The notes under the pieces were generated by a model. That model was not told where the DNA came from and did not search any database. It was given only the letters and a program-made list of their open reading frames with translations. From the NCBI RefSeq assembly GCF_032362555.1, contig NC_083506.1, forward strand, positions 2,279,501 through 2,343,500: a stretch of DNA of 64,000 nt. The letters run 5' to 3'. Source of the stretch: Amyelois transitella. Taxonomy: Eukaryota > Arthropoda > Insecta > Lepidoptera > Pyralidae. The translations under genes and the position numbers were made by a program. This document shows positions 7,301 through 44,079 of the stretch, in pieces (positions within the stretch are counted from its first letter, which is position 1; each line of letters starts with the position of its first letter).

Positions 7301-10300
7301 TTGTATGTAATAGTGTGTGCTTCAAAATAACAAAGTTATAAATGAGTTAATTTAGATTACCTACTTTAATTCAAGGTTTTTGGTGAAGTCCTGGCAAACA
7401 ATGAACACGCAGGAATTGACACCGACAGTAGCTTACTTCAAGAGCGCTCAGACAAACACAAATAAATGGGAAAATTCCGTGGAAGGGATCATAAATGGTT
7501 TAGAAATTGTTGCTATGAGGTGAGTAATCTAGCGTGTGGTTTCAGCAGACAGAGCAGCAGTTTTTATCGGGCGAAAAACTAGCGCTATCCCGTTTCACGT
7601 CATAATAAAAAGCGAAACAGCGACAGAACAGGTTCACTCTTCATCTCATTTTAATTTGGTATGCGGCTCATTTCGACTTCTTCAAATTAAATATTTATTA
7701 TTTCCACAGATTAACTTTTTTTTTAAATTTTGTACACAAATCATTTGGTTTGTTTTTAAAGTACATTTGATTTTTTTTTTGTGATTGTAGAAACGTGTCA
7801 TCCTGCGTGGAGAGCATCAAGAAACGTATGTCATCTGGCATGTGCTATGAGGACGCCTGGAACCTCACCTCCATTCAGCTGGTAACTGCAGCTGAGGTAA
7901 ATCTTAATAAGTATTTAATTACTAATCATACCTTTGTACTTCGCTAGCTATATATTTCGTCCTTTCTCGCGTTTATTTCGGTTCATTTGACAAGAGCTAA
8001 TGACTTCACCTATGAGCTATACAAGCTTGATTTTGTATTCCAGTAAACAAAGTTATAAATACCGTACATACCCACTCGTACGTGCCGTGTGGTTCCCGGC
8101 ACTATTACAAAAAAGAATAGGACCACTCCATCTCTTTCCCATGGATGTCGTAAAAGGCGACTAAGGGATAGGCTTATAAACTTAGGATTCCTCTTTTAGG
8201 CGATGGGCTAGCAACCTGTCACTATTTGAATCTCGGTTCTATCATTAAGCCAAATAGCTGAACGTGGCCATTCAGTCTTTTCAAGACTGTTGGCTCTGTC
8301 TACCCCGCAAGGGATATAGACGTGATCATATGTATGTATGTATGCATACCCACTACTGGATTATTCAGTTCACTCGTCAGAGGGGTGAGGACGCAATCGA
8401 AAACGCCAGGAGTACAGTGACTTACTCATGGACTGCGGTTCAAGACGGTTTACTCGTGTTGCAACAAAGGTTGACTGGAAGAGATTGCATCAGCGATATG
8501 TCCGCTTTTGTACCATATCTGTCTGGTTTCTGCTGTTTTGTATGTTTAACTCTTATGGTACAATAAAGAGTTTTATCTATCTTTCCATCTACTTAGGTAA
8601 ATAATGGGAGATTGATGATAATGTACCTATGTGTAGCGGGAGCGATAATTCGGCTCGACCGCCACCAAAGGAAGGATCTTCCGCCAGGCTAGATAAGTCT
8701 AAATAACGGTCTTAATCTATAGGCCATATATGCTTTCATTGTTTCCAGGCCCATTGCAGAGTGATCATCATCTCTACCTTTCACGAGGAGATGAGGAAGA
8801 TAGCTGACACTGTATCATCTTGTCTGAAGCCAGTACTCTTGCTCCTAGTGGAGTTGTATGCAGTTTATTGGGCTTTGAAGAAACTTAATGACTTACTCCG
8901 GGTATGTCTTAACGCTTAAATATTCGGAATAAGTTATTAAAAGTTGTAAAAACTGGAAAAAGTGACATCGCAACTAATTACTGTTACACATTATGTTGTC
9001 ATCTTACACCTTGTTGTCATATCTGAGATTTTTATGACACCTTCACAACTAGCATTTCTTTTGTCTTATGTTATTTCGATTTCCATGGGGTATACATTAC
9101 TTAAAAAGTACCATTTTCTTTTGGATAACTGTTTCGGAAATCGAACATAAAATTAATAATTATGTTCAAATTAATAATTATGTTCTGTCACTAACACTAT
9201 ATAGGTTTTTAAACCTGAAATAAATGATTTTTATTATTTTATATAAAATTCAGATCTGATAATAATGTCAGAATCACATTTATTTAAATGTACCTACATA
9301 GTTACTTAAAGAAAAGTGCAGAAATGACATTGTTCAAAAGAAATTTATCCTTTATGACGGACTTATCCTTTATTTTTTCCACTCAAACAAATTATTGCAA
9401 ATATTTATCTCCAATATATCATATACTATAAAGTGAATCTCATTCCTCATCTCTCATGGAAATCTCATTCCCATGGATTGAAAAGCGACTAAGGGATAGG
9501 CTTATAAACTTGAGATACTTCTTTTAGGCGATGGGCTAGCAACTTGTCACCATTTGAATCTCAATTCTGCCATTAAGCCAAACAGCTGAACGTGGTCAAT
9601 CAGTGTTTTTAAGACTGTTGGCTTGTACCCCGCATGGGATATAGACGTGAATTTATGTATGTATAAAGTGAATTGCAAGTTGATATAATTATAAATAACC
9701 GTTTTTGTATTTTTTATTTCAGTACACTAACATAACAAGTGGCGACGTGGACAGGCTGCAAGCCTGGTACGAAGACCTGCTGACTCAGATGCGACCTAAT
9801 GCTGTGGGGTTGGTGGATGCCTTTGACATTACTGACGATGTGAGTTGTGAAACATCATCATAACGTGATGATTGATGAATGTGGGTAAAGCAAAAGAAGT
9901 AAGCAGGAATCATGATTTCTGGAAAGATGTAGTCCCTGCCTGCCACTCCGGGAAAGAGGTGTTATACATATTTATAACACCAGTCGTGTGATTCTCACAA
10001 CTTAGGTAAAATACCTCCTCATCTTTATTTCGTGAAGTTTGTAGGAGGCGACTAAGGGAATAAGCATCTTCGTCAAGTGCGACTATCATGATCCAATCTA
10101 GGTAAGGTTTCTCTATCAACAGAGCAATGGCGGCCAGTCGGGAATCTTGTGTCATCGGTTTAATTACCTAACTTATAGTTCTGGGTCGTAGTCTTAGGAG
10201 AGATGCAACTAATTAAAGTTTTAATTGAGAGTTATATTTTTTAAATTAAGATTAAGGTTTACATAGTCTATTTTTCCAGATGTTATGTTCAACTCTGGGT

Positions 10301-10423
10301 TCATACGACGGTCGTGTGTATGAGAGACTGATGGAGGAGGCTCTGAAGAGTCCGCTCAACGCGCAGCCCGTTAACGATAGCTTCCACAAGTATCTCAAGC
10401 CTTTCATGCAGGGAAAGCTATGA
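1312..10423 (+). CDS. ACOX1-like: ACOX gene A: peroxisomal acyl-CoA oxidase 1-like, 14 exons
   Basis: By family, this FAD enzyme oxidises acyl-CoA to trans-2-enoyl-CoA in peroxisomes and passes electrons to O2, giving H2O2. Exons: 1312-1429, 2461-2623, 2961-3129, 3492-3615, 3950-4040, 4687-4840, 5367-5524, 6192-6354, 6680-6870, 7376-7519, 7791-7896, 8749-8901, 9723-9839, 10280-10423. These give 664 codons in one frame, the usual family length. Visible motifs are [19 protein letters not shown] from residue 151, WWPGG at 187-191, ACGGHGY near 406 and TYEGENTV with the expected catalytic base Glu432. The C-terminus is GKL, a weak match to the PTS1 peroxisome signal. I chose ATG 1312 because it aligns with the paralogs; an in-frame ATG at 1252 would add 20 residues without acidic side chains. 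Oddities are an extra intron (4041-4686), a GC-AG intron (6871-7375) and a weak donor after 5524 (GTGGTC). Its closest relative here is gene E. Confidence 0.93.
2353..2453 (+). repeat. 27-bp minisatellite next to the exon 2 acceptor of gene A
   Basis: Nearly four copies of a 27-bp unit containing GGCTACCTAGTTATAACGAG run up to the acceptor TTTTCAG that opens exon 2. The unit length is a multiple of three and the array is open in the frame of 2336-2707, which explains that spurious reading frame. Confidence 0.9.
4041..4686 (+). other. Gene A-specific phase-2 intron
   Basis: It splits the exon that is one unbroken 245-bp block in genes B, C, D and E (91 + 154 = 245 bp in A). Donor GTTAGT, acceptor TTTCAG. 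It contains a truncated SINE-A copy near its start. Confidence 0.9.
4077..4163 (+). repeat. SINE-A fragment in the extra intron of gene A
   Basis: Only the 3' third is present: the AGCTGAACGTGGCC block, then GGCTCTGTCTACCCC and a short TATG tail. It begins 36 bp after the donor. Confidence 0.85.
5015..5170 (+). mobile_element. LINE 3'-end fragment
   Basis: It encodes the end of a LINE ORF2 ([17 protein letters not shown]) and the 3' tail CTCTGCCTACCCC...CGTGATTTTATGTATG. The better preserved copies are at 15883-16500 and 17640-17882. Intron 6 of gene A. Confidence 0.8.
5870..6003 (+). repeat. SINE-A fragment
   Basis: 3' half of SINE-A from the CAACCTGTCACTATTTGAA segment to the TATG tail. 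Intron 7 of gene A. Confidence 0.8.
6381..6641 (+). repeat. SINE-A, near full length
   Basis: It has the GTGCCGTGTGG head and TATG tail and ends 39 bp before exon 9 of gene A. Confidence 0.85.
6871..7375 (+). other. GC-AG intron of gene A
   Basis: The exon ends CCAG and the intron opens GCAAGT, the usual context of the rare GC donor class. The acceptor is TTCAAG before GTTTTTGGTGAAG. The frame and alignment to all four paralogs fix this junction; using the GT four bases downstream would break the frame. Confidence 0.88.
7045..7140 (-). repeat. SINE-A fragment, internally deleted
   Basis: A CATACATACATA tail is joined directly to the 5' head block GGTGCCGGGAACCACACGG, with the middle missing. 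A second small piece lies at about 6958-7012. Confidence 0.7.
8077..8344 (+). repeat. SINE-A, full length with target duplication
   Basis: The GTGCCG head and (TATG)n tail are both present. The flanks repeat CATACCCACT at 8067-8076 and 8345-8354. Intron 11 of gene A. Confidence 0.9.
8395..8585 (+). mobile_element. Non-LTR retroelement 3' end (TCTATC-tailed)
   Basis: Ends CAATAAAGAGTTTTATCTAT. Reverse copies occur at 23146-23292, 36575-36652 and 49338-49402, all beginning at the same AGATAAAACTC terminus. That is typical of 5'-truncated retroposons. I do not know the clade. Confidence 0.7.
9470..9666 (+). repeat. SINE-A, 5' truncated
   Basis: Starts in the GCGACTAAGGGATAGGC segment and ends in the TATG tail, 56 bp before exon 13 of gene A. 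Confidence 0.8.
9869..9966 (+). mobile_element. Degenerate LINE 3'-end fragment
   Basis: A decayed match to the LINE tail (ATGAATGTGG, then CACTCCGGGAAAGAGG), 30 bp after exon 13 of gene A. Confidence 0.55.
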
Positions 10424-10457
10424 TATACATAATAATTTGTTCATTAGCTATGTTAAT

Positions 10458-10463
10458 AATAAA
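10458..10463 (+). terminator. Poly(A) signal, gene A
   Basis: AATAAA 35 bases after the stop codon; a further candidate lies near 10700. Confidence 0.6.
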
Positions 10464-10924
10464 GAAACGTTTCGATAGTTGAAAACTTCGTGGTATAAAA
10501 GAGGAACCACAGCTCCTTGTTGACAAAAGAATCTCAAACTAGACACTGTAATATAATAAAAATGATTTATCACTATCTCTTCTATTTATAATATTCCAAA
10601 CTCTATGGTGTAAAACCTTTAATTTTGTGTTTAATCTGTGTTCTATTTTAAATCAAAAACTGTGATGGTATTAAGACTAATTTTTACTAGTGATGTATAA
10701 ATAAATTTGTTATTTTTATACACCCGTTTTTTATTTATTCAAACCTATTTAAAAGATTTATTTTATGTTTTAAGTCTATACTTTGAAGGACAAAGTATTT
10801 TTTATTTCAAAGTACGTAATAAAATTTATTATGAAATACAGATTTGTTTGTTTATGACAACTTAAAAAGAATAGAGCGGCAGGCGATTAAAAGTTAGTAA
10901 AACAATTAAAAAAAAAACAACACA

Positions 10925-11118
10925 CTGCTCTATCGAAGGACATACATACATACATACATCAATTACGCCTTTTTCCCGGAGGAGTAGGCAGAGCCTATAT
11001 CTTTTCACTTGCCACGATCCCTGCATACTGCATATAGGAAAACTTGCTTCTTTCGCATTCAGAACTCTCTTTATGCGAGCTCATCGGTTTTGGGTACTCT
11101 TGACCTGACCTTTAGCTA
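10925..11118 (-). mobile_element. LINE 3'-end fragment
   Basis: Reverse copy of the LINE tail: CATACATACATAC, ATTACGCC, then CCGGAGGAGTAGGCAGAG and decayed ORF2 sequence. Confidence 0.7.
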
Positions 11119-11204
11119 GATGACGTGTCCGATTTGATCAAGGTACGTTCGTCTACGCCTTCCCACTCCAACAGTCCCATTCACACTCCCTCTTCATCTA
11201 ACGA

Positions 11205-11312
11205 AATATATACATATAGTCACGTCTATATCCCTAGCGAGGTAGACAGAGCCAATAGTCTTGAAAAGGCTCATTCAGCTGTTCACGTTCAGCTATTTGG
11301 CTTAATAATAGA
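11205..11312 (-). repeat. SINE-A fragment
   Basis: 3' part only, reverse orientation, with a 14-bp internal insertion in the TTCAGCTGTTCACGTTCAGC region. Confidence 0.75.
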
Positions 11313-12688: not shown

Positions 12689-12792
12689 CTCGAATACTGG
12701 TATAGTTGACCCAAACTAGCGATAATCATCAGTTGTAAAGCTGTAGATAAAATTAGATGAAAACGTTATAGTAAAAACTACGTACGTATATA

Positions 12793-14033: not shown

Positions 14034-17000
14034 ATGTCTGAAGGAAAAGTTAATGAGGATTTGGTAAGAGAGAGGAAGAAATGTACTTTTGACGTCAAAG
14101 AACTGGTACATCTTATAGATGGAGGGGAACAGGCCACTAAGGACAGGAAAGAAGTGGGTAAGTGGAGGCTTCATTATCAAATTATAAAGTTTCCTTTTTA
14201 AATAGTGGAAAACCCAACAAAAAGACTTACTGTTTTCTCAACTGTAAATAAACGTAATTGTATTCTCCAAGAAATTTTATCAAAATCCAATGTGTTTTTT
14301 TTTAATGAAAGCGAATCTACATGGGAGTCTTAAATAATAATATAAATTGGCTTACCTATTGGCAGGACAACTGGTACTTTTAAATGAAACCATTGCAAAT
14401 GTATAAATGGTAATTTAAGATTAATTGTTTTGACGTAGTATGCTGCGATTAATGGTTTTTGAATATTTTTGACGAATAATGTTGTGGATTTTGTTATCTT
14501 TTGTTAAATTTAATCCACATACGTCTTACGCAGTTAAATAAACAATTATAAACGTGAATTGTAACTCAAAAATATTAAAAACGCCTAATGCTGGAAATTG
14601 GCATACATTATCTATACATATAATAAATCTGTAGAAAGGTCAATTCTGTACATTGAAAATATTGAAAAAATAAATAGCAGGGGGTGTTACTGGATCGATA
14701 CCAAAAACAAATATGTGATTAAAAAAATTTTTGTCTGTCTGTCTGTATGTTCAGGCATCACGTGAAAACTAACGGTTCGATTTTGATGAACCTTGGTATA
14801 ATTATACCTTATTATCCTGGGCGTAAAATAGGATACTTTTTATCCCGAAAAAATACGAAGAAAAAAAAATCTTAATTTTTCAGTGTATCCATAGACGTTG
14901 TTCTGTAGAACCGCGAACACACGTTGCGTTACCCGCAGTGGATTTAGCGCCGTAACCTGTAGCGCCTAAAGTCGGCTTTGGCTTGAACCGTTTGCTGCAC
15001 AAGCGGGCCGCTACTAATTACTATGAAAAAAATACTTCATAGCTACATTAATTCCCATCAAGCTGAAAATGAGTATAATTATTTAAAACACAATCAAAAG
15101 CATTATTTCAAAATCCCCCATGATTCCGGTTTAAAAAAAAAATTTACTCACGGTCAAAGGTAAAAAATGGGTGTATCGCAATTTTCTTTAAAACGGTAAG
15201 TTTTTCAAATCGGAAAATTACCTCAGACATAAATTGTAGATGATAAAGTTATCTATAAAAAAGGTATCAATATTTTTTTTCAACAAAGCTACCGTTTCTG
15301 TGATATAACGATGCAAAAAGTTGCAAGCGTCATAATATGCATCCGTTTCCTTGCCACCTCTGAGGTAGTGTACTATTAGCGCATTTTTTTTAACATTTTT
15401 ATTATTAAACTTGAAAAAGTCTGAAATAGGTTAGAATAAACACGTGTTTTCACTACGCAGTGGCACTCAAGACTAACTTTCGCATTTATTATTTAAAAAA
15501 AATAGAATTACCCTAAGTGAAGAAAATCATCTTAGGACAATAATAGAGGTTACAATTATCAAATTCAATGCAATAATCAAATTAAAACTAAAGCCACTTA
15601 TAAAAAGAAAGAAAAAAGATGACTACAAACTAAAATTTAATTTATAAATTGTACAGTCCTTGCATAGCATCAACATGCGGGAATGTGCCCAGAAGGCTGG
15701 CAGCATTGCCAATTCGAATGGCAATGCTGATTCTCTAAGCCAGATAATTTCCAGCCCTCCGGTCAAGAGATACCTCAATTAGCTTTTTCGACAATTGTCG
15801 GAAAAGCTGATGGACAGATAGGCCCCCCGGTCCCAGAGTTTCTACCCCAAAAGGTTCAAAAGTATAGATATTACTGATAACTACATACATACATACATAC
15901 ATAAAATCACGCCTCTTTCCCGGAGGGGTAGGCAGAGACTACCTCTTTCCACTTGCGACGATCCCTGCATACTTCCTTTGCTTCATCTAGGTACATTCAT
16001 AACTCTCTTCATGCAAGCTCGGCGGTTTCGGGTACTTTTGACCTGACCCTTTACCAGGACGTCCTTAATTTGATCAAGATATGTTCGTCTAGGTCTTCCC
16101 ACCCCGACCTTTCCCTCCACACTCTCCATGTATATCTGCTTAGTCAACCTGTTTTCATTCATCCTGTCCACATGACCGAACCATCTCAACATACCCTTTT
16201 CTATTCCTGTAACTACATCTTCTTTCACATCACAACATTCCCTTATCACACTGTTCCTTATCCGGTCCCTCAATTTCACACCCAACATACTCCTTAACGC
16301 TCTCATTTCCACTGCATTTATTTTGCTTTCGTGCTTCTTTTGCCATACCCAACTTTCACTCCCATACATTAATATCGGGACCAACACGCCCCTGTGCACA
16401 GCCAGTCGAGCCTTTTTGGATAGTTTCTGACTGCTCATAAAGGCATGCAAAGCTCCATTCACCATGTTCCCCGCGTTCACTCTCCTTTCAATATCACTAT
16501 CACACTTGCCATCTGATGTAAACTTTGATCCCGATAACTACATATTTGCGCCTTTTGAGGTTTTTTGCCTCATTTGAAGCAAAACGGCCTTAGATTTAGT
16601 AACCTGAAGATGAGACGGCGCAAGTGACACAAGTAGCATCCCACACCAAAGGCCGCCCCAATCTCCAGGGTACCAAAGTCATACCATCCGGTCTCTTGGC
16701 ATCATCCCGAGCCAGACCGTTTGGTTCTAGAACGGCTGGAACATGGATGGTGGCAAGAGCATGGAGGATTATATAATTTAGGGCGGCATGGCGCCCTAAA
16801 TGGCCGGCACTCCTAGGGCATGGGAGGCCGTGGTGTCCATAGCCGACAACGGTATCCCCGCAAGGACAACTATTATTAAAGACTAACGGTATTTCATGTG
16901 TTGAGCATTCTGAGACAAAGCAGCTATACGACCCTAGCCACGTACACAATTAAACAGAGAGACAGATGTTGTCTCAAGGTTTCACTACAGTATAAATGAA

Positions 17001-20000
17001 GGGACTGGGTTTCATTATACTTATGTATATTTTATATTTTGAATTCAAGTTAAAATTACCGACAGAACAATATTTTTACTTATATTACTGCTACATAGAG
17101 TATATACGAGACGTGCTTATGCATATTATGACGCTTGCAACTTTTTGCATCGTAATATCTCAGAAACGGTAGCTTTATTGAAAAAAAATATTGATTCCTT
17201 TTTATAGATATCTTTATGATCTACAATCTATGTCTGAGGTAATTTTCCTATAAAACTTACCGTTTTCAAGAAAATCGTGAAAGTCCCATTTTCTTACCTT
17301 TGACCTTGGGTAATGTTTTTTCCTGTGTTTGTCAATTGTGTTTTAAACAATTATACTCATTTTCAGCTTGATGGGAATTAATGTAGCTTCATTCTTATTT
17401 TTTGGTCTAAATTGACCGGACTACTTACTACAGAACGCGAACTCAACAGCAGTAGCTCAATAGAGGGATCTCCTTAATTATAATAGGCCTAGCCGTAATT
17501 GGGTCCAATAGATATTTTTAAGATGTCATCTCAAAATGGAGAAATAAACCATCCACGCGATGACCGACATCCGCGCGGACGGAGTCGCGGGGGGAAGCTA
17601 GTATCAAATATAACTTTATATTTACATACATACATAAAATAGCAGATATACAAGGAGAGTGTGGAGGGAAAGGTCGGAGTGGGAAGACCTAGACGAACGT
17701 ATCTTGATCAAATTAAGGACGTCCTGGTAAAGGGTCAGGTCAAAAGTACCCGAAACCGCCGAGCTTGTATGAAGAGAGTTATGAATGTGGACGAAGCGAA
17801 AGAAGTATGCAGAGATCGTGGCAAGTGGAAAGAGGTAGTCTCTGCCTACCCCTCCGGGAAAGAGGCGTGATTTTATGTATGTATAACTTTATATTTAACT
17901 TAGTATACCTACGTAATATGTCGATGACCTGTGTTATCACAAAAAAACATTGAAATATTTGATATATCATAACATGACATGGAATTTTGCAGAGGAAATG
18001 GTACTGAGTGTGAAGGAGCTCAGAGATGAAGTCCCTGAAGAGTACATGAGCCACAAAGAACGGTACGAGAACGCTGTCCGCAAGTCCTGCATCATGATAG
18101 AGCTGTTGAAAGACCACGCGCTACGGCATTCCTCGTTCGATGCCTACAAGTAAGTATTAGAACATCACTAAGGTCGCTCACAGAGGAACTTTGTCAGGTT
18201 AGCGACCACTCTAACGTCACTTACCATCAACCAATCACAGCAAAGTATGCTATGCAATAGTAACGAAGGGATTAAATCATGTAAACTTAGTTTTTATGGA
18301 GCCTTACATCTTACTCGTTTAATGCCTACAAGAAAGTTTAAAAACAGAGTTCTCTGTGGTCTCCCAAGAGATCTTCGATAAGAGAATGCAGTTCCAAAGG
18401 TTATATCATGATGAAGCTGCTGTAACACAACGCACTACGGCATTCCTCGTTTGATTCCTCGTTTGACGTTTGCTGCCTCGCAGAGAAGATTCGTCTAGCG
18501 ACATATCAAAAGTGAAAAAACAAAATTCGGGTAGAGAGTTAGGAGTAGAGTATACATACATATGATCCCGTCTTCATCCGTTACGGGTTAGACAGAGCCA
18601 ACTACTTGTCTTGAAACGACTAGAAGGCTAAGTTCAGCTGTATGGCTTAATTGGGAATTGACATTCAAATAATGATAGGATGCTAGCCTATCGCCTAAAA
18701 GAGGAATCCCAAGTTTATAAGCCTATCCCTTAGTCACCTTTTAGGACATCCATGAGAAAGGACTATATATTTATCATATCCCTTATTCGCCGTTTACGAT
18801 ATCCATGGGTTAGACATGGAGTGGTCCTATTCTAAGTGTCGGAAACCACACGGCAATATATTTCATGAAAAAACTAGCCGACTAAATTTTCGATTATGGG
18901 CCAAATAATTTTAGTGTCCTCCTGAACCTTTAAGTATTATGATCGATATTCTGATCAAAGTTGTTAATATTAGTGGCCAAAGGTACAAAGATAAATATAT
19001 TTTATCACAATATTGTTGTTAGTTATATTGTTGATATTCTTATCAGGTCAAAAGTTGTCTGACACGGATTACATATCGATTTTCGAAAGCGAAGTCTACC
19101 CAATTGGGCGATGGCAGCCGCAAATAATTAGAAATAGATAAAAGTTACAAGTCATACTTGTTTTGAGATTCTTTTTTAGGCGATGGGCTATCAACCTGTC
19201 ACTATTTGAATCTCAATTCTATCATTAAGCCCAATAGCTGAACGTGGCCTTTCAGTTTTTTCAAGACTGGCTCTATCCGCAAGGGATAAAGATATTACAA
19301 TATGTACACTACTCAGAAAAGTTACAACCGGGACAAACACCAGAACCAAAATTGTCAACGACATGATGTTTTCAGGCCTTCGAACATGTATCGGGTCCAG
19401 AGCGCAATAGTGAAGGATGTGTCTCCTTTCCTTCTCCACATGGGAATGTTCGTTCCCACCATTCTGGGTCAGGCGTCAGACGACCAACTCGCCGAGTGGC
19501 TGCCAAAGGCGTTGTCAATGCAGATATTGGGGACTTACGCACAAGTATGATAAAACAATTTTAAACAAGAATATGAATGTGGTTTCTGGGTTCAACAACT
19601 TAATACTTTTTTTTTATACGGGACAAATTACACGGATTGAGTTAGCTTCGAAGTAAGTTCGAGACTTGTGTTACGAGATACTAACTCAACGATACTGTAT
19701 TTTATAATAAATACTTATATAGATAAACATCCAAGACCCAGGTCAGTCAGAAAAAGTTCTTTACTCATCATGCCCTAACCGGGATTCGAACCCGGGACCT
19801 CCGGTGTCACAGACAAGCGTACTACCGCTGCACCACAGAGGCCATCAAATACTGCTTTTTGCTGGCTGATTTTTAAATGCTAATTTATTTTTTAGTTGTT
19901 CAAAGACTTGCTTGCTTTTAATACGTAGTTATAATACGTGGTACAAACTTTTGGATCTTACACATAGTCTTACATGTCGATATTGTGCTCTTATCCTTGA

Positions 20001-30017: not shown

Positions 30018-30069
30018 TTTACTGAGTTATTAGGATAAATTGGTTACCGGATAAAATTGTTATTATGTA

Positions 30070-30075: not shown

Positions 30076-30580
30076 CTAGCTTTCCGCCCGCGGCTTCGCC
30101 CACGTGTAATTCGGTTATACATATATAGCGTTTTTTAATGATCTCGACAGGGCTTTTTCTTCCACAGGCTGAAATCTTGTTACAACTGGAATTAAAAATC
30201 AAAATATTTGTAGTGTGTAATATGTAGTTTCGCGTATGTCCGCTAGGGGGCTGCTAAAATTACACGATAAATTAAAATATTTTATGCTACCTAGCTTAAT
30301 GACGGTAACGAAACCATAGCGCGATCTATCTCGATGCCAACGCCATCTATCGAGCATCGAGACAACTCGTGATAGTTAATAAAATTCGGGTGTTTTATTT
30401 ATGCATACCGATTACGCCGAGATTTATGGACCGATTTACGTGATTCTTTTTTTGTTTGGTAGAGTATACTTTCAAGTTGGTCCCGTTGTTACCTAGTCAG
30501 GATCTGATGATGGTATTCCAGGGAAATCAAGGGCAAACCTCAAATTTACAGGCAATTACGTTTTTGACAATTTCATAGAT

Positions 30581-31540
30581 CTGTTTAAGTATTTGCGTCT
30601 GATAGTCATCATCCCATGTGAATGAGCTGATGATGGAAGGTACAACTCCTCAACGGTTAGGAGTTGAAAGAAAATTCTTACGAAGTTATACGTACATGTG
30701 AGGCTATTAGGTTGACCTGATAATAAAAAGTAAATCTCATTAACGTTAAGAATTTAGGTGAAAATGGATGCGGACAAATTTCGTAGCTGTTTGTATGGGT
30801 AGTGTTAACACAAAATAGGGATTTAAGGCGTGATGTTATTAATGTTATGCATGTATGTACATAATTATGTATGTTATTATGTATGTTAAAGAGACGACTG
30901 AAAGTTGTCATACAAAGTCTTTTTTTTTAAGGATGGCAAATCATCAAATGACCTCTCCCGCTCTGGGTGGAACGGAAGGGAGTGTCAGACTTTTACTGAC
31001 TAAAACTCACCTCGTTCCTTCAGTTGCCCTTTGCGTTCCGGGGCCACGGTATCTCGTTAGAACTTTCCCGCAGCCCCGGCTCAGTTTATCCCGTTTCCCC
31101 CCCTTGGGGGTTGACATTTCAAAAATCCCTTCTTAGTGCTCACTTATGTTACTAAAGGAACCTCTGTTCAAAATCTCAGACTCCTATACCGAGCGATTTC
31201 GGCTGTGCGTTAATAAATCAGTCACCCAATCGCACCCCCTAAATCACGTTTGGAGGGTAGTTTGAAAAAACTTATAATGTCAAACATATTTACTTGCCTA
31301 TGTACGTGTTCATGCCAAGTTTCAAGTTTATAAACCCAAGGAATAAGATTTTTCATAGAAACGTTTTTACCCCTTTTCCCCCCCTTGGGGGTTGAATTTC
31401 CAAAAATCCTTTCTTAGTGCTCCCCTACATATCCCAAGGAACCTACATTCCAAATTTCAGCTGTCTACGACCAGTAGTTTCGACTGTGCGTTGTCTGTCA
31501 GTCAGTCACTCAGTAACGGAAGAGTTTTATATATATAGAT
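30581..31540 (+). repeat. 960-bp repeat, copy 1 (uninterrupted)
   Basis: The same sequence occurs after gene D at 53754-54496 and 56163-56400, split there by a Tc1/mariner-like insertion. It holds two related internal units, each opening with a C-run then TTGGGGGTTGA and containing TTCTTAGTGCTC. It ends in GTTTTATATATATAGAT. A conserved short frame (GSVRLLLTKTHLVPS) is present in both copies. Class not recognised. Confidence 0.85.
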
Positions 31541-31806
31541 TATAATTTTGTTTATCGGATTTTTTCTTGGTGTCTCTTACTTCTGCTTCCTTTCATGCCA
31601 AAACCCAAACTGTGATTTACTAAGTAAATAGATTAGATATATATTTACTCAGTAAATCACAATATATAGATTGGTATTAAATTAGTAAATGAATTAATTA
31701 TATTTTTGTTTATCTGTTTGTTTCCTTGGTGTCATAAGTTTTCTTCTTTTATATAAAATAGGGTTCAGTATTCAAACACACAATTACAGGATTTTTAGAT
31801 ATTTCA

Positions 31807-33018: not shown

Positions 33019-36000
33019 ATGATAGGACAAAAAGTGAACGAAGATTTAGTCAAAGAAAGAAATAAGTGCACATTTGATGTGGAAGAATTGATACATTTTG
33101 TGGATGGAGGCAAAGAGAATACGGTGCAAAGAAGGGAACTGGGTAAGATTAAAATTAACAATTAGATTGAACGAACTAATCCAACAAATGTAGAAAATGT
33201 TCGCGGCTTAGAAAGTTTTTAAATTAGAGACATATTTTGTTTAAAAATCGAATGTCACTAAGAACTAAATCATATCTAAAACAGTTGTTTATCTTACATT
33301 TTGCTTGTCATGGAGTCACGGCACAAACAAGTGTCGGAGGAGACAAACACTAATCCTCTGTTATTGAGAAAGAAAGAGACAACTGTAGTTCTTGCGTTGC
33401 ACATGTATGCGTTGACGTTGGCGACTTCAAGGCGAAACATCACGAGATTCTCCGAACTATCTAATTGTTTGAACCAATCATATCGCAGTATTATAAGAAT
33501 ATTTTAAGCGCGAATTTTGATTATTTTCAAATAAATCAAGTACAATACCAAGACATTTACGTACGTAGGTCCTTGTTTCATTTGTCATAAATTTAAATCA
33601 TAAAGTGGGCTATTTGTGTTTTATGTTTGCAGAGGAAAGACTTTTTTCCAATAAGGATTTAAAAGATGATGTACCAGTAGACTATTTGAGCCACAAGGAA
33701 AAGTATGAAAATGCCGTCAAGAAAGCCTGTATCGTAACTGAAATTATAAACGAGCATCGGAAACAATATCCATATAATATTTTGAAGTAAGTATTTATAC
33801 CAAGTAAGATAGCTTTATTGCACTAGAAAACAAGTAAAATAAAAGGTGGCCTTAATATAAATCTTTCAGGACTAATATAAATGAAGGTGGCGCAGACATA
33901 AAAAATTTGAGACTAAAATATAAACAACTGAGGAGTGAATACACGCCAAAAAAATTGTCTCTTCCAATTATTATTTTGTCACAATATAATCCTATAAAAC
34001 ATAAAATTATTTACATTTCAGGCTCAATAACGTGTATAGACCAGCAACTGTTGGAGTCCTCAAGAATGTATCACCGTTTTTGCTCCATAACGGCATGTTC
34101 GTCCCTACTATCATGGGCCAAGGCACGCCGGAACAGCAGGAGGAATGGCTGCCCAAAGCCACGGCTATGAAAGTCATTGGTACATACGCGCAGGTGAAAA
34201 TATTTATTTTTAAAGTATCACTACATAGTATAAAACAAAGTCGCTATTTTAGTCTGTTTGTCTGTATGCTTAAATCTTTAAAATTACGCAACGGATTTTG
34301 ATGCGGTTTTTTGTAACAGGTAGAGTAATTCAAGAGGAAGGTTTTTTATGTATAATAACATTTATAATTTTGCACCCGTGCGAAGCCGGGGCGGGTCGCT
34401 AGTAACTTATAAAGTACCACCAAACCTGAACCGATTTTCTTTTAGCGCAGCCCTAGAACATAAAATCCTACATGTTTAGTCAGTTAATGTCTTTTTAAAC
34501 GTGTTTAAGACGAAGATAATGGTGATCATCAATATATTTTTAAACGGTTTTATTTAGCTCACCCCGTTTGTTTTATTTATTCTTGGGTCAAATTTAGTAA
34601 TTCAAATTTCACCCTCTTCCTGTCAACCGATTAATCTGAAATTTTGTATACACTTTGGATTTTGGTGACAATATAATTATGTTTATTCATTATCATTATA
34701 AATTCAAGATGGCCGCCGTTACAAAATGGCGGATAATTTAGGTTTCATTAATCCCATCAATATGGGTATCAAATGAAAGGGCTCAACAAGCAGAATACAA
34801 TATACTATAAAAAATTGAAATCCAAGATGGCGGCCTCTACAAAATGGCGGATAACTTAGGTTTTATCAATCCCATCAACATGGGTATCAAATGAAAGGTC
34901 TCAACAAGTAGAATACAATTTACTATTCAAAATTAGTACCTGAGTATTAAACAATTGAAAATAAATATTAATACGCCCTTATTAATATATATACATAACT
35001 AAATGACTGTTAAGGTATCTTTTAATATATTATTAAGTTGTCGCATTCAATAAGGTCAAGCCTACGTGGCTCTTAGTAGAGTAAGATCTTTGCAGGGACT
35101 AAGTATAGAGGAGTTGGACTGCAATAAACTAACGGGCAAGAAACCTTGCAATAATGAAGCACTAAATGAATTAAACAGAATGCGAAATAAAAACTAAAAA
35201 CTAGAAAATAAAAATAGGTAAAAAAACTTTTTAAGTTAAACGGTTTTATGTTAAACATACATTGCAATGTTTAATATAAATGTACTAAAAACCAAAAAAT
35301 AATAAAATAGATACAGTCGTGGGAATTATAAACATATGCATAGACTAGACTAAAATAAAACCGTGGGGCACGTCAATTGTCTACAAATTATAGACTTAAT
35401 GTGCGATAGAAGAATCGTTTAATTCGTCGTTAGGCAGTTGGCCCGCAGACGGTGCGCAAATTACTTACTATTTTGCTGGCTAGCGAGGAATCGTTTCACT
35501 GCTCGTAGTTTGTCTTTAATCGACAAAACTTATGATAAAAGTACTACTCGCTCAACATTATGAAACCGTAAAACTCGCTTAATCGAGCTTGCTAACTTGT
35601 TTCCACATTCTAGCCCTACTTATCACACGTCCATCGTTGTCGGTTGAACAACTGCCTAATTATAGTGTAACATTACAAAACAAACATTTTAATCAACGAT
35701 TGTAGACAATTGACGTGCCCCACGGTTTTATTTTAGTCTAGTCTATGCATATGTTTATAATTCCCACGACTGTATCTATTTTATTATTTTTTGGTTTTTA
35801 GTACATTTATATTAAACATTGCAATGTATGTTTAACATAAAACCGTTTAACTTAAAAAGTTTTTTTACCTATTTTTATTGTTTGTATCGATAATCAAACA
35901 TCTTGAACAGTATCCGATCAGTGCCGTGTGGTTCCCGGCACCAATACAAAAAAAGAATAGGACCACTCCATCCCTTTCCCGTGGACGCAAAAGGCCACTA

Positions 36001-39000
36001 AAGGATAGGCTTACAAACTTGGGATTCTTTTTTAGGCGATGGGTCAGCAACCTGTCACTATTTTAATCTCAATTCTATCATTAAACTAAATAGCTGAACG
36101 TGGCCATTCAAGTAGGCTCTGTCTACCCCGCAAGATATATAGACGTGACCATATGTATGTATGTTTAACATTATCGACCTAATGCGAAGCAACTTGAATT
36201 TCATTTGGTGTTGCCTCAATGACTGGAAATAAAATAGGTGAATTGTTTACGTTACCATACTTACATACGGTCACGTCTATATCCCTTGCGGGGTAGACAG
36301 AGCCAACAGTCTTGAAAACACTGAATGGCCACGTTCAGCTATTTGGCTTAATGATAGAATTGAGATTCAAATAGTGACAGGTTGCTAGCCCACTACGTTA
36401 CCAAGGTGTCTTTATTCAATTGCTTCGTTTCGCAGACTGAGTTAGGACACGGAACGTTCTTGAGAGGTCTGGAGACCACGGCGACTTATGATCCAACGAC
36501 AGAAGAATTTGTAATAAACACTCCCACGCTGACTGCTTACAAATGGTGGCCAGGAGGATGTAAGTATCGATAGGTAGATAGATAGATAAAACTCTTTATT
36601 GCACCATAAGAGTAAAACATACAAAACAACATAAAACACACAGGGATGGTAAAAAGTATCTAATAAATTGGAGTATCTACATATCAAATTTTATATGTAT
36701 TTTAAATTTTAACAACATTGTGGATAAGTCAAAACTACTTAATCGATTTTTCCAAAAACCACTACCTACCTATACAAATTTTATTGCTTTTAAAAATTCC
36801 ATTGGCAGATCCTACATACATTTTAGTTTTCATCAAAATCGGATCAACGATTAGAAAGTTATCGTGTTACAAACATACATACATACGTTCATACATACCT
36901 ACTTTATACATAGATATGTTCCCTTGTACGTATAAGTACTAGATAACGAAAAACTTTGAAAAGAAGAGTTATTCGATTTTTACAAAATGTTAATAACCCA
37001 ACTCATGTACCTCTAGATTTTATTTGGTTTAAAAAGCGCAATGGATTTCATCAAATAATTTTGTTTTTTCAAAAAATTGATGTTGACTTTCCTGACCAGG
37101 CAAGCCTAATGAGGAATTCATCCTATCCTACTACTATTATAAAGGCGAAAGTTTGTATGGATGTATGGATGTTTGTTACTCTTTCACGCAAAAACTACTG
37201 AACCGATTACCATGAAATTTGGTATGTAGGTAGCTGAAGACCCAGAATAACACATAGGCTACTTTTTATCCCAGAGTTCCCGCGGGATTGATAGGGTTTC
37301 CATGCGGACGAAGTCGCGGGCGGCCTCTAGTAGATATATAAAACCTTTAATTGTTAAGTGATTTCTAAATCTTAATTTGTGCTGTATCGTCATAATTTGT
37401 ATATGCTTGGTGTAAAAAAAAAAGAAATCTTTTTTTTTTTCAGTGGCCCACACGACCAATTACTGCATCGTCGTTGCCCAACTTTACATCAAAGACAAGT
37501 GTCTAGGAGTCCATCCGTTCATTGTCCAGCTTCGAGATTTAGAAACGCACCAGCCTTTGCCCGGTATTAAATTGGGGGAGATCGGACCCAAACTGGGATT
37601 TCAGACGGCCAACAACGGGTTCCTGGCTTTTGACAATGTGAGGATACCGAGGAAGAATATGCTGATGAAGAATTCGCAAGTCCTGAAGGTAATCTGTTTG
37701 TAAGAAATATTATTTAATTAGAGTAGACTTTATCTGTAAGTGCTTTAAAATAGCTAGAAAATTGTTATTCAAATCTTTTTTCAATTATCAGGTATGAACA
37801 TGAAAAACAGGTGCACAAACATAGGTGTAAGAATTTATGCCTTTTTAAAATTTTGCTTCAATATATACATTGAAGTAGTTAGTATTGATACATTCATTGT
37901 ACTAAATAAAAAGCTAATCTGCGAGAGATATCAAAACCTCTTTGCGGGGTAGACAAATCCAACAATCTTGAAAAGTCTAATAGGCCGCGTTCAGCTCTTA
38001 AACGGTGGAATTGCGATTCAAATAGTGACAGCTTTTAAGCCCATCGCTTATAAGAATCCCAAGTTTATAAGCCGTTTTCTTGATTGATTTGTACAATTTT
38101 TTCACTACTTGACCATCATGGAAGCTCATTATTGTCCAGTATTGTCATTGAAATAAATAAAAATGTAAACCTAGTTAAAAATAAGGACTTGATATATATA
38201 TATATATATAATCTTAATTCTTAAAACACTTGACGACCTCTGTGGCGCAGCGGTAGTACGCTTGTCTGTGACACCGGAGGTCCCGGGTTCGAATCCCGGC
38301 CGGAGCATGATGAGAATTTTTTTTCTGATTGACCCCAGGTCTTGGATGTTTATCTATATAAGTATTTATCATAAAATATAGTATCGTATATCGAATTAGT
38401 ATCTCGTAACACAAGTCTCGAACTTACTTCGATGCTAACTAGATCAGTGTAATTTGTCCCGTATATATGTATTTATATTTATTTATTTAACAGGATGGCA
38501 CATTCGTAAAATCTCAGAACGACAAGCTTACGTACGGCACGATGGTGATGGTCAGGGTGACCATCGTCAGAGACGCCGCCTACTGCCTGGCCTCGGCCTC
38601 CACCATCGCCGTGCGATATGCGGCCGTCAGGCACCAATCACAGCCCAAACCCAAGTTAGTAAATGAATGGTCTTTTTTCATAAGCTGCTGCATTAACTAT
38701 AGGGAATCTCACGTCTTTGAGATTGAGAGGAACGATAGAAAAACAATATAGTAATAAATTTATACACACAAAAGACATCTCCACCTTCTCATCAGATTCA
38801 AAAGCATCTATTCTGTTAGGAAAAAAGACAATTAAATTACACCTTCATTGCCAAACAATTTCCCTGAGAAAATCCGAGAATTGGTCACGACCCGATTGAG
38901 GTGGAGAAACTTGCTTATTTATTCATACATATATGTAATCACGTCTTTATTCCTCGCGGGGTGGACAGAGCCAACAGTCTTGTAAAGACTGATAGGCCAC

Positions 39001-42000
39001 GTTCAGCTATTTGGCTTTAAGATAGAATTGAGATTCAAATAGTGACAGGTTGCAAGCCCATTGCTGTAAAACAGAATTCCAAGTATGTAAGCCTATCCCT
39101 TAGTCGCCATCGACATTACGATCATCTCACAGTCATCTCAGTCATTTACGACATCCAAGTCCAAGTCCATCCCAAGTTAATAAATGGTTTTTTTTCATAA
39201 GTTGCATGCTTAATAGCATTAACTATCAGGAATCTCACGTCTTTGAGATTGAGAGAACTAAAGAAAATCAATATAGTTAAAAATTGATACACATAAAAGA
39301 AATCTCTACCTTCTCACCAGATTCAAAAGCATCTATTCTGTTAGGAAAAAAGACAATAAAATTACACCTTCATTGCAAAACAATTTCCCCGAGGAAATCC
39401 GACTGTTGATCACGACCCGATTGAGGTGGCGAAACTTGCTTTTTTATACTTACTTACATAAATACATGTAATCACGTCTTTGTTCCTTGCGGGAAAGACA
39501 GAGCCAACAATCTTAAAAAGACTGATAGGCCACGTTCGGCTGTTTGGCTTAATGATAAAATTGAAATTTAAATAGTGACGTTTTTGAGTTGCTACCCCAT
39601 CGCCTAAGAAGAATCCCAAGTTTAAAAGCCTATCCCTTAGTCGCTTTTTACGACATTCATGGGAAAGAGATGGAGTTGTCCAATTCTTTTTTTCTATTTG
39701 TGCCGGGAACCACACGGCTTTATGGAAACATTTTATTTTAAATCTGCCTGTAACTAGCCTTCCAACTAATTAAGTTTTGCGTGAACCCATTTTGAATTAG
39801 GATCAGAACATTAGATGCATCTCCCAATAACCGTTATATTCAATAACTAGCTGTGCCCGCGACTCCGTTCGCGTGGAATAGTTATTTTGGGCATAATTGA
39901 AGCCCTCAAGAATGAATAATTTTCCCCGTTTTTTCACATTTTCCATTATTTCTTCGCTCCTAATAGTTGAAGCATGGTGTTATATAGCCATATTATATAT
40001 TCAACTCAAAAATATTTTTTCAATTTGGACCAGTCGTTCCTGATATTAGCGCGTTCAAACAAACAAACAAACAAACTCTTTAGCTTTCTAATATTAGTAT
40101 AGAGATGTATTTATTATCTTTCAGCGAACCAGAACCGCAGATATTGGATTATTTGACACAACAGCACAAACTTTTCATTCACATCGCGACCAGCCACGCT
40201 TTCAGAATCGTCGGCGACTGGCTGTGGGACACCTTCGTCCAGGTCAACTTGGACATGAGGAAAGGGAACATGGACCAATTGCCGGAGGTATTCAATTGTA
40301 TTCGTGAAAAATTTCACATGCAAATCTTTTGCAAATCTTACGAATACAAATCTTGAATTCATCTTTGCATGTTTCCAGTAGTACCCTCTGCCGCTTCGCT
40401 TTAGAGTCTATGGTTCGTTTACCTACGAATACAAACCTATATTTTTTATACACATACATACATACATATGGTCACGTCTATATCCCTTGCGAGGTAGACA
40501 GAGCCAACAGTCTTGAAAAGACTGAATGGCCACGTTCAGCTATTTGGCTTAATGATAGAATTGAGATTCAAATAGTGACAGGTTGCTAGCCCATCGCCTA
40601 AAGAAGAATCCCAAGTTTGTAAGCCTATCCCTTAGTCGCCTTTTACGATATCCATGGGAAAGAGATGGTGTGGTCCTATTCTTTTTTTCATTGGTGTCGA
40701 GAACCACACGGCACCTATATTTTTTGATTCCCAAAACCTACCTTATTGGTCTGAAGATAAAGTAACTTTTAGTTAATAATCTTTAAAAAAATATATATAA
40801 AGTGACTTCTTGTTTACTTCACTCTCTTTGGAGGGAAGGGATTTAATGATAACGATACAGAAATGGCATAGAGTTTTGTGTTAGGGCTGACATCTCAAAT
40901 TTCCATCAATATTGTAACTTCAGTAACATTACTAAGCAATTATAAAATTTTGTAAATAACACTAGCTGTGCCCGCGACTTCGTCCGCTTGGAATAGTCAT
41001 TTTGGGCATCATTGAAGCCCTCGAGGATGAATAATTTACTCCGTTTTTTTTTCACATTTTCTATTATTTCGCGGACACAGCTAGTATTAGTATAGATTTA
41101 ACATGATATCGGTTTCTTTCTGCCAGTTACATGCTTTGGCCTGCTGTCTGAAAGCAGTTTCAAGTCTCGACGCGTCTCTAGGAGTGGAACAGTGTCGTTT
41201 AGCTTGTGGTGGCCATGGATACATGGCGTCTTCCAACTTCCCGGTTTTATACGGTCTCATAACTGCCTCTGTGACTTATGAGGGGGAGCATACTGTGCTG
41301 TTATTGCAGACTGCTAGGTTAGTGAAAGATTAAATATCTTATTTTTATATATTATACATTGTATAAAGCAAAATGTCTGTCCCTTTATCTGTATGTATGC
41401 TTCGATCTTTAGAACTATACAACGGATATACATACATACATACATATGATCACGATCCCTTACGGGGTAGACAGAGCCAACAGTCTTGAAAAGGCTGAAA
41501 GGCCACGTTCAGTTGTTTAGCTTAATGAATAGAATTGAGATTCAAATAGTGACGGGTTGCTAGCCCATCGCCTAAAAGAAGAATCCCAAGTTTATAAGCC
41601 TATCCCTTAGCCGCTTTTTACGACATCCATGGGAACGAGATGGAGTGGTCCTATTTTTTGTTTTACAAAGGATATTGATGCAGTTTTTTTAAATAGATAG
41701 AGTGATTCAAGAGGATGTATGCATAAATGCTAACCGTGCGAAGCCGGGGTGATGCGCTAGTATTTAATATATCAATCGCAAAGTGCATGTCCACTATATA
41801 TCTATGGGAAGGTCACTACTCTAAAATAAACCCAATCAGATTCAATAATTAATTGAGAGTATCCAATATGTTTCGATTATAATTTATCTAACTGCTGTAA
41901 CTGTTTCTGTTTCAGATATTTAGTCAAAGCATGGAAGCAGACATTGGAAGGAAAAGCTATGACCCCCACGGTATCCTATCTCCTGGACTATTTCAAATCT

Positions 42001-44079
42001 AACAGGAATCAATGGGAGAATACTCCGCAACGCATCGTAATAGGTTTCCAAGAAGTTGCAGCTGGGTAAATTAAAATATCAATTTCATAATTTCTGAAAT
42101 CTATTTTTTTTAAATTTACTACACTTTAGAATAGGACCTCTCCATATCTTTCTCATGGATGCCGTAAAGACGACTAAGGGACCAATAAACTTGGGATTCT
42201 TCTTGAAGGTTATGGGCTAGCAACTCGTTTCTACTTGAATTTCAAATCTTTTCAAGACTTTTGCTCCCCCCAGGGATATTACCAGAAAGGTATGAACAAA
42301 AAATTTAAAGCACTTTTCAAAATATCTTTAATTTATAGGAAAACAAAAGCGGCTTGTGAAACAATAGAGAAGTATGTGAACGCCGGCAATGATTATGAAG
42401 ACGCTTGGAATTTGGCTTCAGTACAACTTGTCAGTGCTAGTGAGGTAAGATACACGATACGGTGTAGTTTGTTTGTTTTAGAAAATGCTGCAGTGCAGTT
42501 TGTTACCGCTTCTTCTGCACTGACGCCTTGGAAGCGGCAGTAAACTTAGTTTTAAGTAATTTATTTGACGTCAACCAATGTTGTGTAACCAAACGTTTTG
42601 ACAATTATTAAGCGATATGAAGTATTCTATAATAATTAATAAAAACTTTTGAATTTGAATTTGTTTGTATGCTATTTCAAAAGCCTTAGGCCTTTATCTA
42701 AAGTGTATATTTTTGCTTCATACTGAATTTCATTTGGCGAGAGCCATATTATCTTTGGTTCATTAATAAAATTATGCTACAATTCTACAGCTACTAGTTT
42801 ATCTGTTGCTTAATCTGAGTTAAATATTTAATTGAAATTTGGTTGCTTTTTATGATAATAAATGTTTGTGGAAATTTTCAATCCTACTACTTTTTTTCAG
42901 GCTCATTGCAGGGCGATCATTTGTAATATCTTCCTGAGTGAAATTCAACGTCTCTCGACAACTTTTTCACAGAATTTGGCAATAGTAATGCAGCAATTAG
43001 TAGAGTTATACTTGGTTTACTGGACTCTGCAAAAGACTGGTGACTTGTTGGAGGTACAAATACCTATTTAGTTAATTTTGCTTCATGTGCCATCAATTAT
43101 AAATATTACATACATACATACGGTCACGTCTATATCCCTTGCGGGGTAGACAGAGCCAACAGTCTAAAGACTGAATGGCCACGTTCAGCTATTTAGCTTA
43201 ATGATAGAATTGAGATTCAAATAGTGGCAGGTTGGTAGTTTATCGCCTAAAAGAAGAATAACAAGTTTAAAATCATATCTCTATGCTTATCTCCATGTGA
43301 TCTTGATTATAAGACTTTTTATAAGCTAAGGACTTAGCTAAGAGGCCGTATTAAGCGTCTTAATGGGCTCGAGTATAAGTGTTTAATATATTTTTTATTG
43401 AACGAGTAGCTTAATGATGCTAATGATATGTTTATTTTGTTACAGTATTCATCTATTTCCAAAGCGGATATTGCCGTTTTGAGGAATAGGTATGAAGAAT
43501 TATTGACACTCATCAGACCCAATGCTGTGGGCCTCGTCGACGGGTTCGGCATTAGAGATGAGGTATTCTGAGTCAAAATTGTTATGCACTAGACTTTTTT
43601 TTTAAGTTTTTGCAAAATTTATTTTTCACTAGCTGTGCCCGCGACTTCGTCCGCGTGGAATAGTTATTTTGGGCATCATTGAAGCTCTCAAGGATGAATA
43701 ATTTTCCCCGTTTTTAATGTCTTCGCTCCTTATAGTTGCAGCGTGCTGTTATATAGCCTAAAACCTTTCTCGATAAATGATCTATTCAACGCAAAAATAA
43801 TTTTTCAATTCAAACCAGTAGTTCGTTGGAATCACTTCCAAAACTTCGGAGTTTCACAGGGCAGTATTTTAGGTCAATTTCATTTAGAACAGGGTAGAAA
43901 GAACTAAACAAATGTATGCTTTTTCATTACAGACGTTAGGGTCAGCCCTGGGTTCGTACGACGGTCGTGTGTATGAGAGACTGATGGAAGAGGCTCTGAA
44001 GAGTCCGCTCAACGCGCAGCCCGTCAACGATAGCTTCCACAAGTATCTCAAGCCTTTCATGTCAAAGGCAAAACTGTGA
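33019..44079 (+). CDS. ACOX1-like: ACOX gene C: peroxisomal acyl-CoA oxidase 1-like, 13 exons
   Basis: Third gene of the array. Exons: 33019-33142, 33633-33786, 34022-34193, 36436-36559, 37444-37688, 38494-38654, 40125-40287, 41127-41317, 41916-42065, 42339-42444, 42901-43053, 43446-43562, 43933-44079. These give 668 codons. ATG 33019 is the first ATG in its open frame and aligns with the other starts. It has [19 protein letters not shown] from 151, WWPGG at 187-191, ACGGHGY and TYEGEHTV (expected base Glu433), with His where gene A has Asn. The C-terminus AKL is a good PTS1. The last exon is nearly identical in DNA to that of gene A, although the exon before it is strongly diverged. Intron 3 holds a perfect 179-bp inverted repeat, intron 6 a tandem duplication, and introns 6 and 7 Helitron-like insertions close to acceptors. 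Confidence 0.94.
34228..34402 (+). mobile_element. Helitron-like element
   Basis: GTCTGTTTGTCTGTATGC near the start and GGGGCGGGTCGCTAG before T at the end. Intron 3 of gene C. Confidence 0.65.
34702..34940 (+). repeat. Tandem pair, about 117-bp period
   Basis: Two copies of a unit containing AAGATGGC, ACAAAATGGCGGATAA and ATGGGTATCAAATGAAAGG. Probably part of an old element. Intron 3 of gene C. Confidence 0.8.
35207..35879. repeat. Foldback element: perfect 179-bp inverted repeat
   Basis: Arms 35207-35385 and 35701-35879 are exact reverse complements by eye across all 179 bases, with a 315-bp spacer. The spacer holds a further inverted pair, TTAGGCAGTTG and CAACTGCCTAA. No coding frame; no clear target duplication. 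Intron 3 of gene C. Confidence 0.92.
35921..36164 (+). repeat. SINE-A, near full length
   Basis: GTGCCGTGTGGTTCCCGGCA head to TATG tail, with a short deletion in the TCAGTCTTTTCAAGAC region. Starts 41 bp after the foldback element. Confidence 0.88.
36247..36393 (-). repeat. SINE-A, 5' truncated
   Basis: Reverse copy that ends at GGTTGCTAGCCCA, about 40 bp before exon 4 of gene C. Confidence 0.85.
36575..36652 (-). mobile_element. Non-LTR retroelement 3' end
   Basis: Begins AGATAGATAGATAAAACTC, the same terminus as at 23146 and 49338; strongly truncated. It starts about 15 bp after exon 4 of gene C. Confidence 0.75.
37121..37330 (+). mobile_element. Helitron-like element
   Basis: Starts TCC after A, contains the CTACTATTATAAAGGCGAAA block, and ends with GGACGAAGTCGCGGGC and CTAG before T. 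Intron 4 of gene C. Confidence 0.75.
37928..38075 (-). repeat. SINE-A, degenerate
   Basis: Reverse copy without head or tail repeats. Intron 5 of gene C. Confidence 0.7.
38232..38462 (+). repeat. tRNA-derived SINE, near complete
   Basis: Opens with TGGCGCAGCGGTAGTACG (A box) and carries GGGTTCGAATCCCGG (B box). The 3' body runs through GTATCGTATATCG to TTTGTCCCGTAT. It ends 31 bp before exon 6 of gene C. Confidence 0.9.
38646..39720 (+). repeat. Tandem segmental duplication, about 520-bp period
   Basis: Unit 1 starts in the last bases of exon 6 of gene C and includes its donor (CCCAAGTTAGTAAATG). Unit 2 repeats this at about 39170 (CCCAAGTTAATAAATG). Both share the AATCTCACGTCTTTGAGATT segment and a reverse SINE-A (about 38924-39118 and 39452-39720), so the SINE was copied with the rest. 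Confidence 0.88.
39847..40105 (-). mobile_element. Helitron-like element abutting the exon 7 acceptor
   Basis: Reverse copy: CTAG at the left end, GA|T at the right end after CTAATATTAGTAT. Only 19 bp of other sequence, including the polypyrimidine tract and AG, separates it from exon 7 of gene C. Confidence 0.85.
40448..40714 (-). repeat. SINE-A, full length with target duplication
   Basis: Flanked by exact CTATATTTTTT (40437-40447 and 40715-40725). 267 bp, the same length as the reference copy. Intron 7 of gene C. Confidence 0.94.
40962..41096 (-). mobile_element. Helitron-like element, internally deleted
   Basis: CTAG end with GTGCCCGCGACTTCGTCCGC, then a jump to a second GCGGACACAGCTAG and the ATTAGTATAGA terminus. 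It looks like a rearranged or deleted copy. It lies 30 bp before exon 8 of gene C. Confidence 0.7.
41341..41760 (+). mobile_element. Helitron-like element split by a SINE-A
   Basis: The host element runs from about 41341 to CGAAGCCGGGGTGATGCGCTAG. SINE-A 41429-41664 (reverse, head lost) sits inside it, flanked by ACAACGGATA and ACAAAGGATA. Intron 8 of gene C. Confidence 0.8.
42120..42260 (+). repeat. SINE-A, degenerate
   Basis: Recognisable GGACCTCTCCAT, GACTAAGGGA and GGGCTAGCAAC blocks with deletions. It ends before exon 10 of gene C. Confidence 0.65.
43107..43275 (-). repeat. SINE-A, 5' truncated
   Basis: Reverse copy with a clean CATACATACATACGGTCACG tail. Intron 11 of gene C. Confidence 0.8.
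43629..43830 (-). mobile_element. Helitron-like element, truncated
   Basis: CTAG end with GTGCCCGCGACTTCGTCCGC; the other terminus is lost. Intron 12 of gene C. Confidence 0.75.

Follow-up and report, generated by a model that had tools for sequence, protein, structure and literature searches.

A short last-exon segment appears to have been exchanged repeatedly among four clustered acyl-CoA oxidase genes of the moth Amyelois transitella

How can two genes whose coding sequences stand close to synonymous saturation share a stretch of last exon that is almost the same base for base? This question is posed by a cluster of acyl-CoA oxidase genes in Amyelois transitella, which we analysed in a 64,000-nucleotide stretch of DNA (the window; C2:2279501-2343500, where C2 is the 13.8-Mb contig that holds it in an assembly of 327 Mb and 33 contigs) together with its flanks, 175 kb in all. 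The six acyl-CoA oxidase genes found there lie in the order Z, A, B, C, D, E. Z is upstream of A on the minus strand, the other five genes share one orientation, and the window holds A, B, C, D and most of E on its plus strand; positions without a contig prefix are those of the window. An earlier note on this DNA had proposed, from inspection by eye, a gene conversion between the last exons of A and C. Its coordinates and its count are exact: positions 10295-10408 of A and 43948-44061 of C differ at 3 of 114 bases (10303, 10336 and 10372 in A numbering), and all three differences are synonymous.

To place this tract in its surroundings, exon models were built with tblastn and a purpose-written spliced alignment. 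Statistics were computed on the core from exon 4 to exon 13 (TELGHG to the C-terminus), which forms an uninterrupted reading frame in each of the six genes; the less certainly modelled exons 1-3 were for that reason kept out of the divergence tests. Within the tract, A and C differ at 3 of 24 synonymous sites (0.125), compared with 0.83 over the 476 preceding codons. The low divergence is therefore not shared by the genes as a whole, the possibility that the earlier note had set against its own proposal. Exon 12 (9723-9839 in A, 43446-43562 in C), described there as strongly diverged, has a proportion of differing synonymous sites (pS) of 0.99 and of non-synonymous sites (pN) of 0.28. Identity between A and C is 0.974 in the tract, as opposed to 0.728 in the best 38-codon window lying wholly outside it and a mean of 0.605 outside. 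At positions with the same residue in both genes, Met and Trp excepted, 33 of 36 codons are identical in the tract, as against 96 of 274 in the sequence that precedes it (Fisher p = 3.7e-11). In a GENECONV-type test on genes A to D, the A-C fragment was reached by none of 10,000 site shuffles, at silent as well as at all polymorphic sites, and the other five pairs were not significant. In agreement with the many differences ascribed to B and D, these genes depart from A at 19 and 31 of the 114 bases, respectively, and from C at 20 and 31. The synonymous divergence (dS) of the A-C tract is 0.14, with a 95% interval of 0.03-0.42 that reflects 3 differences in 24 synonymous sites. At an assumed substitution rate of 2.9e-9 per site and generation, this corresponds to an age of about 24 million generations (5-73 million), so that close relatives may share some of the conversion events.

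The tract is not confined to A and C. A genome search with it gave at least five matches, all in this cluster: A, C, B (84%) and two beyond the window, namely the last exon of Z (C2:2261273-2261386, minus strand, 96%) and the last exon of E (C2:2352310-2352423, 95%). The segment of D lies below the reach of this search, although D has the exon and agrees with A at 83 of the 114 bases; viral and bacterial collections yielded no relatives. Among Z, A, E and C, 107-112 of the 114 bases are identical in each of the six pairs, pS is 0.08-0.25 and the same 38 residues are encoded. B and D encode different residues, four of which they share against the other genes. In the tract, pS of the four genes amounts to 0.62-0.67 against B and 0.93-1.02 against D, B-D stands at 0.97, and identity in pairs with B or D is 71-83%. 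Over the 477 alignment columns before the tract, by comparison, pS is 0.75-0.83 for the six Z/A/E/C pairs and 0.73-0.83 over all 15 pairs.

GENECONV-type and synonymous-divergence tests, by which the earlier note had suggested checking its idea, single out the tract in all six Z/A/E/C pairs. With six genes and silent sites, the observed fragments were reached by none of 3000 shuffles in five of these pairs and by 3 of 3000 in Z-E; with all sites the count was 0 of 3000 in all six, and the best fragments all lie on the tract. None of the nine pairs with B or D was significant after correction for 15 pairs; their lowest uncorrected values (A-B 36 and B-D 65 of 3000 for silent sites, C-B 165 of 3000 for all sites) fall elsewhere in the gene. 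A search of exons 4-11 for other conversion tracts among A to E (10 pairs) likewise gave nothing significant after correction, the lowest value being that of B-C at exon 10, with 64 of 2000 shuffles at all sites but 1988 of 2000 at silent sites. Thus, conversion as such is supported by pS, trees and permutations, whereas a single A-C event is not, since Z, A, E and C are all homogenised and Z is on the opposite strand.

The clearest argument comes from the phylogenies. As the earlier note had put it, A groups with E and C with B in a maximum-likelihood tree of exons 4-11 from A to E, a topology that was the best of 8 scored out of 15 possible. Once Z is added, it is Z that groups with A, and E adjoins the two. 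In the six-gene tree of the sequence preceding the tract, C has B as its sister (ultrafast bootstrap 100 for protein, 99 for nucleotides) and D joins them (95 in both), while Z, A and E stand on the other side, with Z+A supported at 86 (protein) and 79 (nucleotides). The tract tree instead splits {Z, A, E, C} from {B, D} with a support of 99. C therefore belongs with Z, A and E in the tract but with B elsewhere, and this position of C, as read from the sequences, is the main argument that conversion has probably taken place. Z, A and E are near saturation elsewhere, so that their common tract would also require exchange, which suggests at least three conversions in all.

Both ends of the tract are sharp. 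On the right, TTCATG is common to the six genes, after which Z, A, E and D, which share a gap of one codon, continue with QGKL, B with AKAKL and C with SKAKL. Hence the A protein ends in MQGKL and the C protein in MSKAKL, in line with the remark that the similarity stops before the C-terminal tail and leaves A with GKL and C with AKL. The grouping of the tails (Z, A, E and D versus B and C) indicates that their history differs from that of the tract. On the left, the sequence is TCAGCC in C and E, TCAGCA in Z, TCAACT in A and D, and TCCACT in B. As C agrees here with E, its homogenised stretch is about six bases longer than 43948-44061 (43942-44061, with TCAGCC at 43942-43947), which ties C to Z and E rather than to A, although six bases are a small sample. 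Pairwise alignments of Z, A, E and C through the tract extend no more than about 28 bp beyond it on the upstream side and 25 bp on the downstream side, and further matches in the 600-bp flanks are upstream, at the position of exon 12. The tract is wholly exonic in the four genes and bounded on both sides by unconverted sequence, as is characteristic of a patch and not of a crossover.

On the basis of these comparisons, recurrent non-reciprocal ectopic gene conversion of the last-exon segment among Z, A, E and C is very probably the explanation. A segment of about 114-120 bp of the last coding exon would have been copied non-reciprocally between these genes in three or more events, presumably by ectopic homologous repair such as synthesis-dependent strand annealing. 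Its confinement may be due to the fact that this is where the unconverted paralogs are on average still most alike: among the nine pairs with B or D, mean identity is highest in the tract (0.77), followed by exon 4 (0.73) and exons 5-12 (0.53-0.68). The introns, the 3' flanks and most neighbouring exons would be too diverged to take part. Each conversion would renew the identity of the segment and thereby ease the next one.

Several observations weigh against this interpretation. Identity in the tract is no higher than 71-83% for the pairs with B or D, which would have offered poor homology for the first event; according to the accessible portion of one study, conversion takes place chiefly where identity exceeds 80%, its rate being low under that level (PMC3924818). 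The position of the tract is not accounted for by similarity alone, as exon 4 is nearly as conserved (mean 0.73) and individual 38-codon windows in other parts of the gene attain 0.82 (C-B) and 0.81 (Z-A) but give no conversion signal. The comparison is one among paralogs of a single genome, while divergence between orthologs would be the strongest test against constraint at the nucleotide level. In addition, tests of direction disagree. When the tract is entered as a single tip alongside B and D, with branch shapes adopted from the remainder of the gene and with Z and the last exon of E left aside, nucleotides favour a C-type source by 3.5-3.9 log-likelihood units and amino acids an A-type source by 1.0.

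Inspection of the individual changes bears on the same point. By eye, private changes in the tract are absent from C but affect two codons in Z, two in A and three in E; one codon separates Z and C from A and E. This pattern fits C as the source or as the latest recipient. The C tract is closest to that of Z (112/114), by one base over A (111/114). A transfer from C to A appeared to be favoured as long as four genes were considered, but the question proved too narrow once the tracts of Z and E had been found. Repeats as anchors of the exchange were also rejected: the nearest family present in both genes (9462-9664 in A, 43107-43282 in C) lies over 600 bp away from the tract, in opposite orientation.

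Could the four genes have kept the same synonymous sites by descent, under purifying selection on a splicing signal, an RNA structure or an overlapping function? By mean identity, no other stretch is as conserved as the tract; its antisense frame -2 contains no stop codon along the 114 bases of Z, A, E or C, whereas in B and D it is interrupted; and shuffled versions of the E tract RNA fold less well than the tract itself (z = -2.2). The latter two points count weakly against conversion, and an open frame says little at such shortness and similarity. We nevertheless regard constraint as very improbable, as B and D belong to the same family and carry the exon in the same position, yet their tract pS towards all other genes is 0.62-1.02, and as C bears the Z/A/E type in spite of being the sister of B. 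Descent would furthermore demand parallel losses with the same replacements at the four residues common to B and D. Folding of the A and C tracts gave z values of -0.08 and +0.61, respectively, and structures unlike each other; an RNA structure as the reason for the common codons was therefore dismissed for want of a consistent signal in A, C and E.

A template of complementary DNA, by which 3'-biased reverse-transcribed copies of messenger RNA would have repeatedly overwritten the last exons, accounts for the restriction of all detected events to the last coding exon and for the wholly exonic tract. Nevertheless, intron 12 is retained by all six genes without any loss, exon confinement is expected anyway because the adjoining introns do not align, and the at least five matches to the tract in the genome search all lie inside this cluster, which makes such a template unlikely. 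Unequal crossing-over or partial duplication, yielding chimeric genes with a common exon, would suit a tandem array with five genes in one orientation; we give it hardly any credence, since shared flanks of the tract were not found and such exchange does not result with Z on the opposite strand. Misassembly of one exon into the other genes is just as implausible: the four copies vary at 8 tract codons, sit in different flanks and lie on a single 13.8-Mb contig of a 33-contig assembly. Recurrent conversion might also be extended to a self-sustaining island, in which the most constrained stretch would still be exchanged among four genes in both orientations after the rest had passed the homology limit, B and D having dropped out. 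In this model, which is possible but doubtful, the process would be 3'-biased, perhaps RNA-templated, or favoured by selection that keeps the C-terminal domains alike, for instance in mixed dimers.

As judged from their sequences, the genes of the window are peroxisomal acyl-CoA oxidases of the ACOX1-like type. A Pfam scan of two of the six proteins, A and C, returned PF14749, PF22924 and PF01756 above the curated cut-off in both; PF02770 was just above the cut-off in A and below it in C. The nearest solved structure to part of C is that of rat acyl-CoA oxidase (1is2, E = 7.2e-66). All six genes have TYEG at the position of rat TFEG. We take the glutamate of this motif to be the equivalent of the rat catalytic Glu421. 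The predicted proteins of Z, A, D and E end in GKL (encoded at 10409-10420 in A and 53203-53214 in D), and those of B and C end in AKL. GKL does not conform to the consensus of a canonical peroxisomal targeting signal of type 1; the QGKL tail of A is a possible signal of this kind.

The models comprise 13 coding exons per gene and 14 in A. Gene A extends from an in-frame ATG at 1312 to a stop codon at 10423 (plus strand, as for all genes of the window). It has an additional intron inside exon 5 (4041-4686) and a GC-AG intron after exon 8 (6871-7375), neither of which is present in the other five models. Its last exon (13) spans 10280-10423 up to the stop codon, and its tract at 10295-10408 is identical to that of C at 111, of Z at 109 and of E at 108 of 114 bases. 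Gene B (14043-30017, from the first modelled codon) and gene D (44450-53217, exons 2-3 modelled uncertainly) have last exons other than the shared type. Gene C, also supported by spliced alignment and Pfam, occupies 33019-44079, with its last exon (13) at 43933-44079 up to the stop codon. Gene E starts at 57377 and is cut by the window end at 64000, which its 8.7-kb intron 11 crosses. Exons 12 (C2:2351684-2351800) and 13 (C2:2352295-2352435, with the shared tract) lie outside, the last exon 8.8 kb beyond the window. The model of Z, with 13 exons, is open over 668 residues. Beside its intact exon 8 there are several partial copies of this exon (C2:2264982-2266766), and Tandem Repeats Finder reports a repeat in the region (C2:2265268-2266417, period 503, 2.3 copies, 98% match).

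The cluster contains a number of further repeats. A 1.67-kb element with imperfect terminal inverted repeats of about 30 bp occurs in intron 6 of D (47313-48981) and downstream of D (54502-56165), the copies being 97% identical. The latter copy interrupts a repeat of about 960 bp that is intact at 30580-31541, so that the empty site is visible. The coding end and 3' flank of B (29991-30040) have an 82% copy 1.6 kb downstream at 31589-31638, with repeats between the two, and this copy adjoins an inverted partial copy at 31639-31681. Intron 3 of C harbours a perfect 180-bp inverted repeat (35207-35386 and 35700-35879), and intron 1 of B one of about 248 bp with 94% identity (15893-16140 and 17641-17884). 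An interspersed repeat of about 260 bp is found in many copies on both strands of introns and spacers, for instance at 8082-8347, 23954-24218, 40452-40714 and 61293-61552.

Both ectopic gene conversion and concerted evolution are familiar processes. Surviving tracts in Caenorhabditis measure 50-200 bp, as stated in the available part of PMC3966223, and the tract of about 114-120 bp falls within this range. The same excerpt describes fog-2/ftr-1, which resemble the present case in a short tract, tens to hundreds of bases long, between linked paralogs. Those genes, however, share 82% identity across their homologous coding region, and the converted stretch is adjoined by about 70 identical bases, whereas here identity is about 60% outside the tract and four of six genes are involved. 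The P450 genes CYP6B8/28 and CYP6B9/27 of Helicoverpa zea (as cited in the accessible text of PMC7830528) are likewise lepidopteran paralogs with conversion polar to one gene end. There it is the 5' end, with one pair 99.8% identical in protein and the other relatively divergent, in contrast to a 3' exon in genes near synonymous saturation. Copepod GOT1 paralogs (in the portion available of PMC3728101) display a comparable mosaic of high and low divergence between arthropod enzyme paralogs, albeit in two paralog pairs across populations and not in one exon segment of four genes in one genome. A literature search on acyl-CoA oxidase together with gene conversion in moths or insects, or with tandem duplication in Lepidoptera, found nothing, most subscription journals being outside its scope. 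What stands out is the combination of four of six genes, both orientations and one segment of about 114-120 bp in surroundings near synonymous saturation, an unusually narrow and repeated footprint.

Acyl-CoA oxidases are candidates for chain-shortening in moth pheromone synthesis, and in Agrotis segetum one of them is 72 times higher in the pheromone gland (both from the accessible sections of PMC4575462). For the genes analysed here, trees from C-terminal fragments would mislead. The cluster also singles out one of the factors that bear on the time for which paralogs go on exchanging sequence, as one segment is homogenised and the remaining coding sequence tested is close to saturation. With a single homogenised segment in one family and one cluster, natural data could thus be used to study both the homology limit and the part played by gene orientation.
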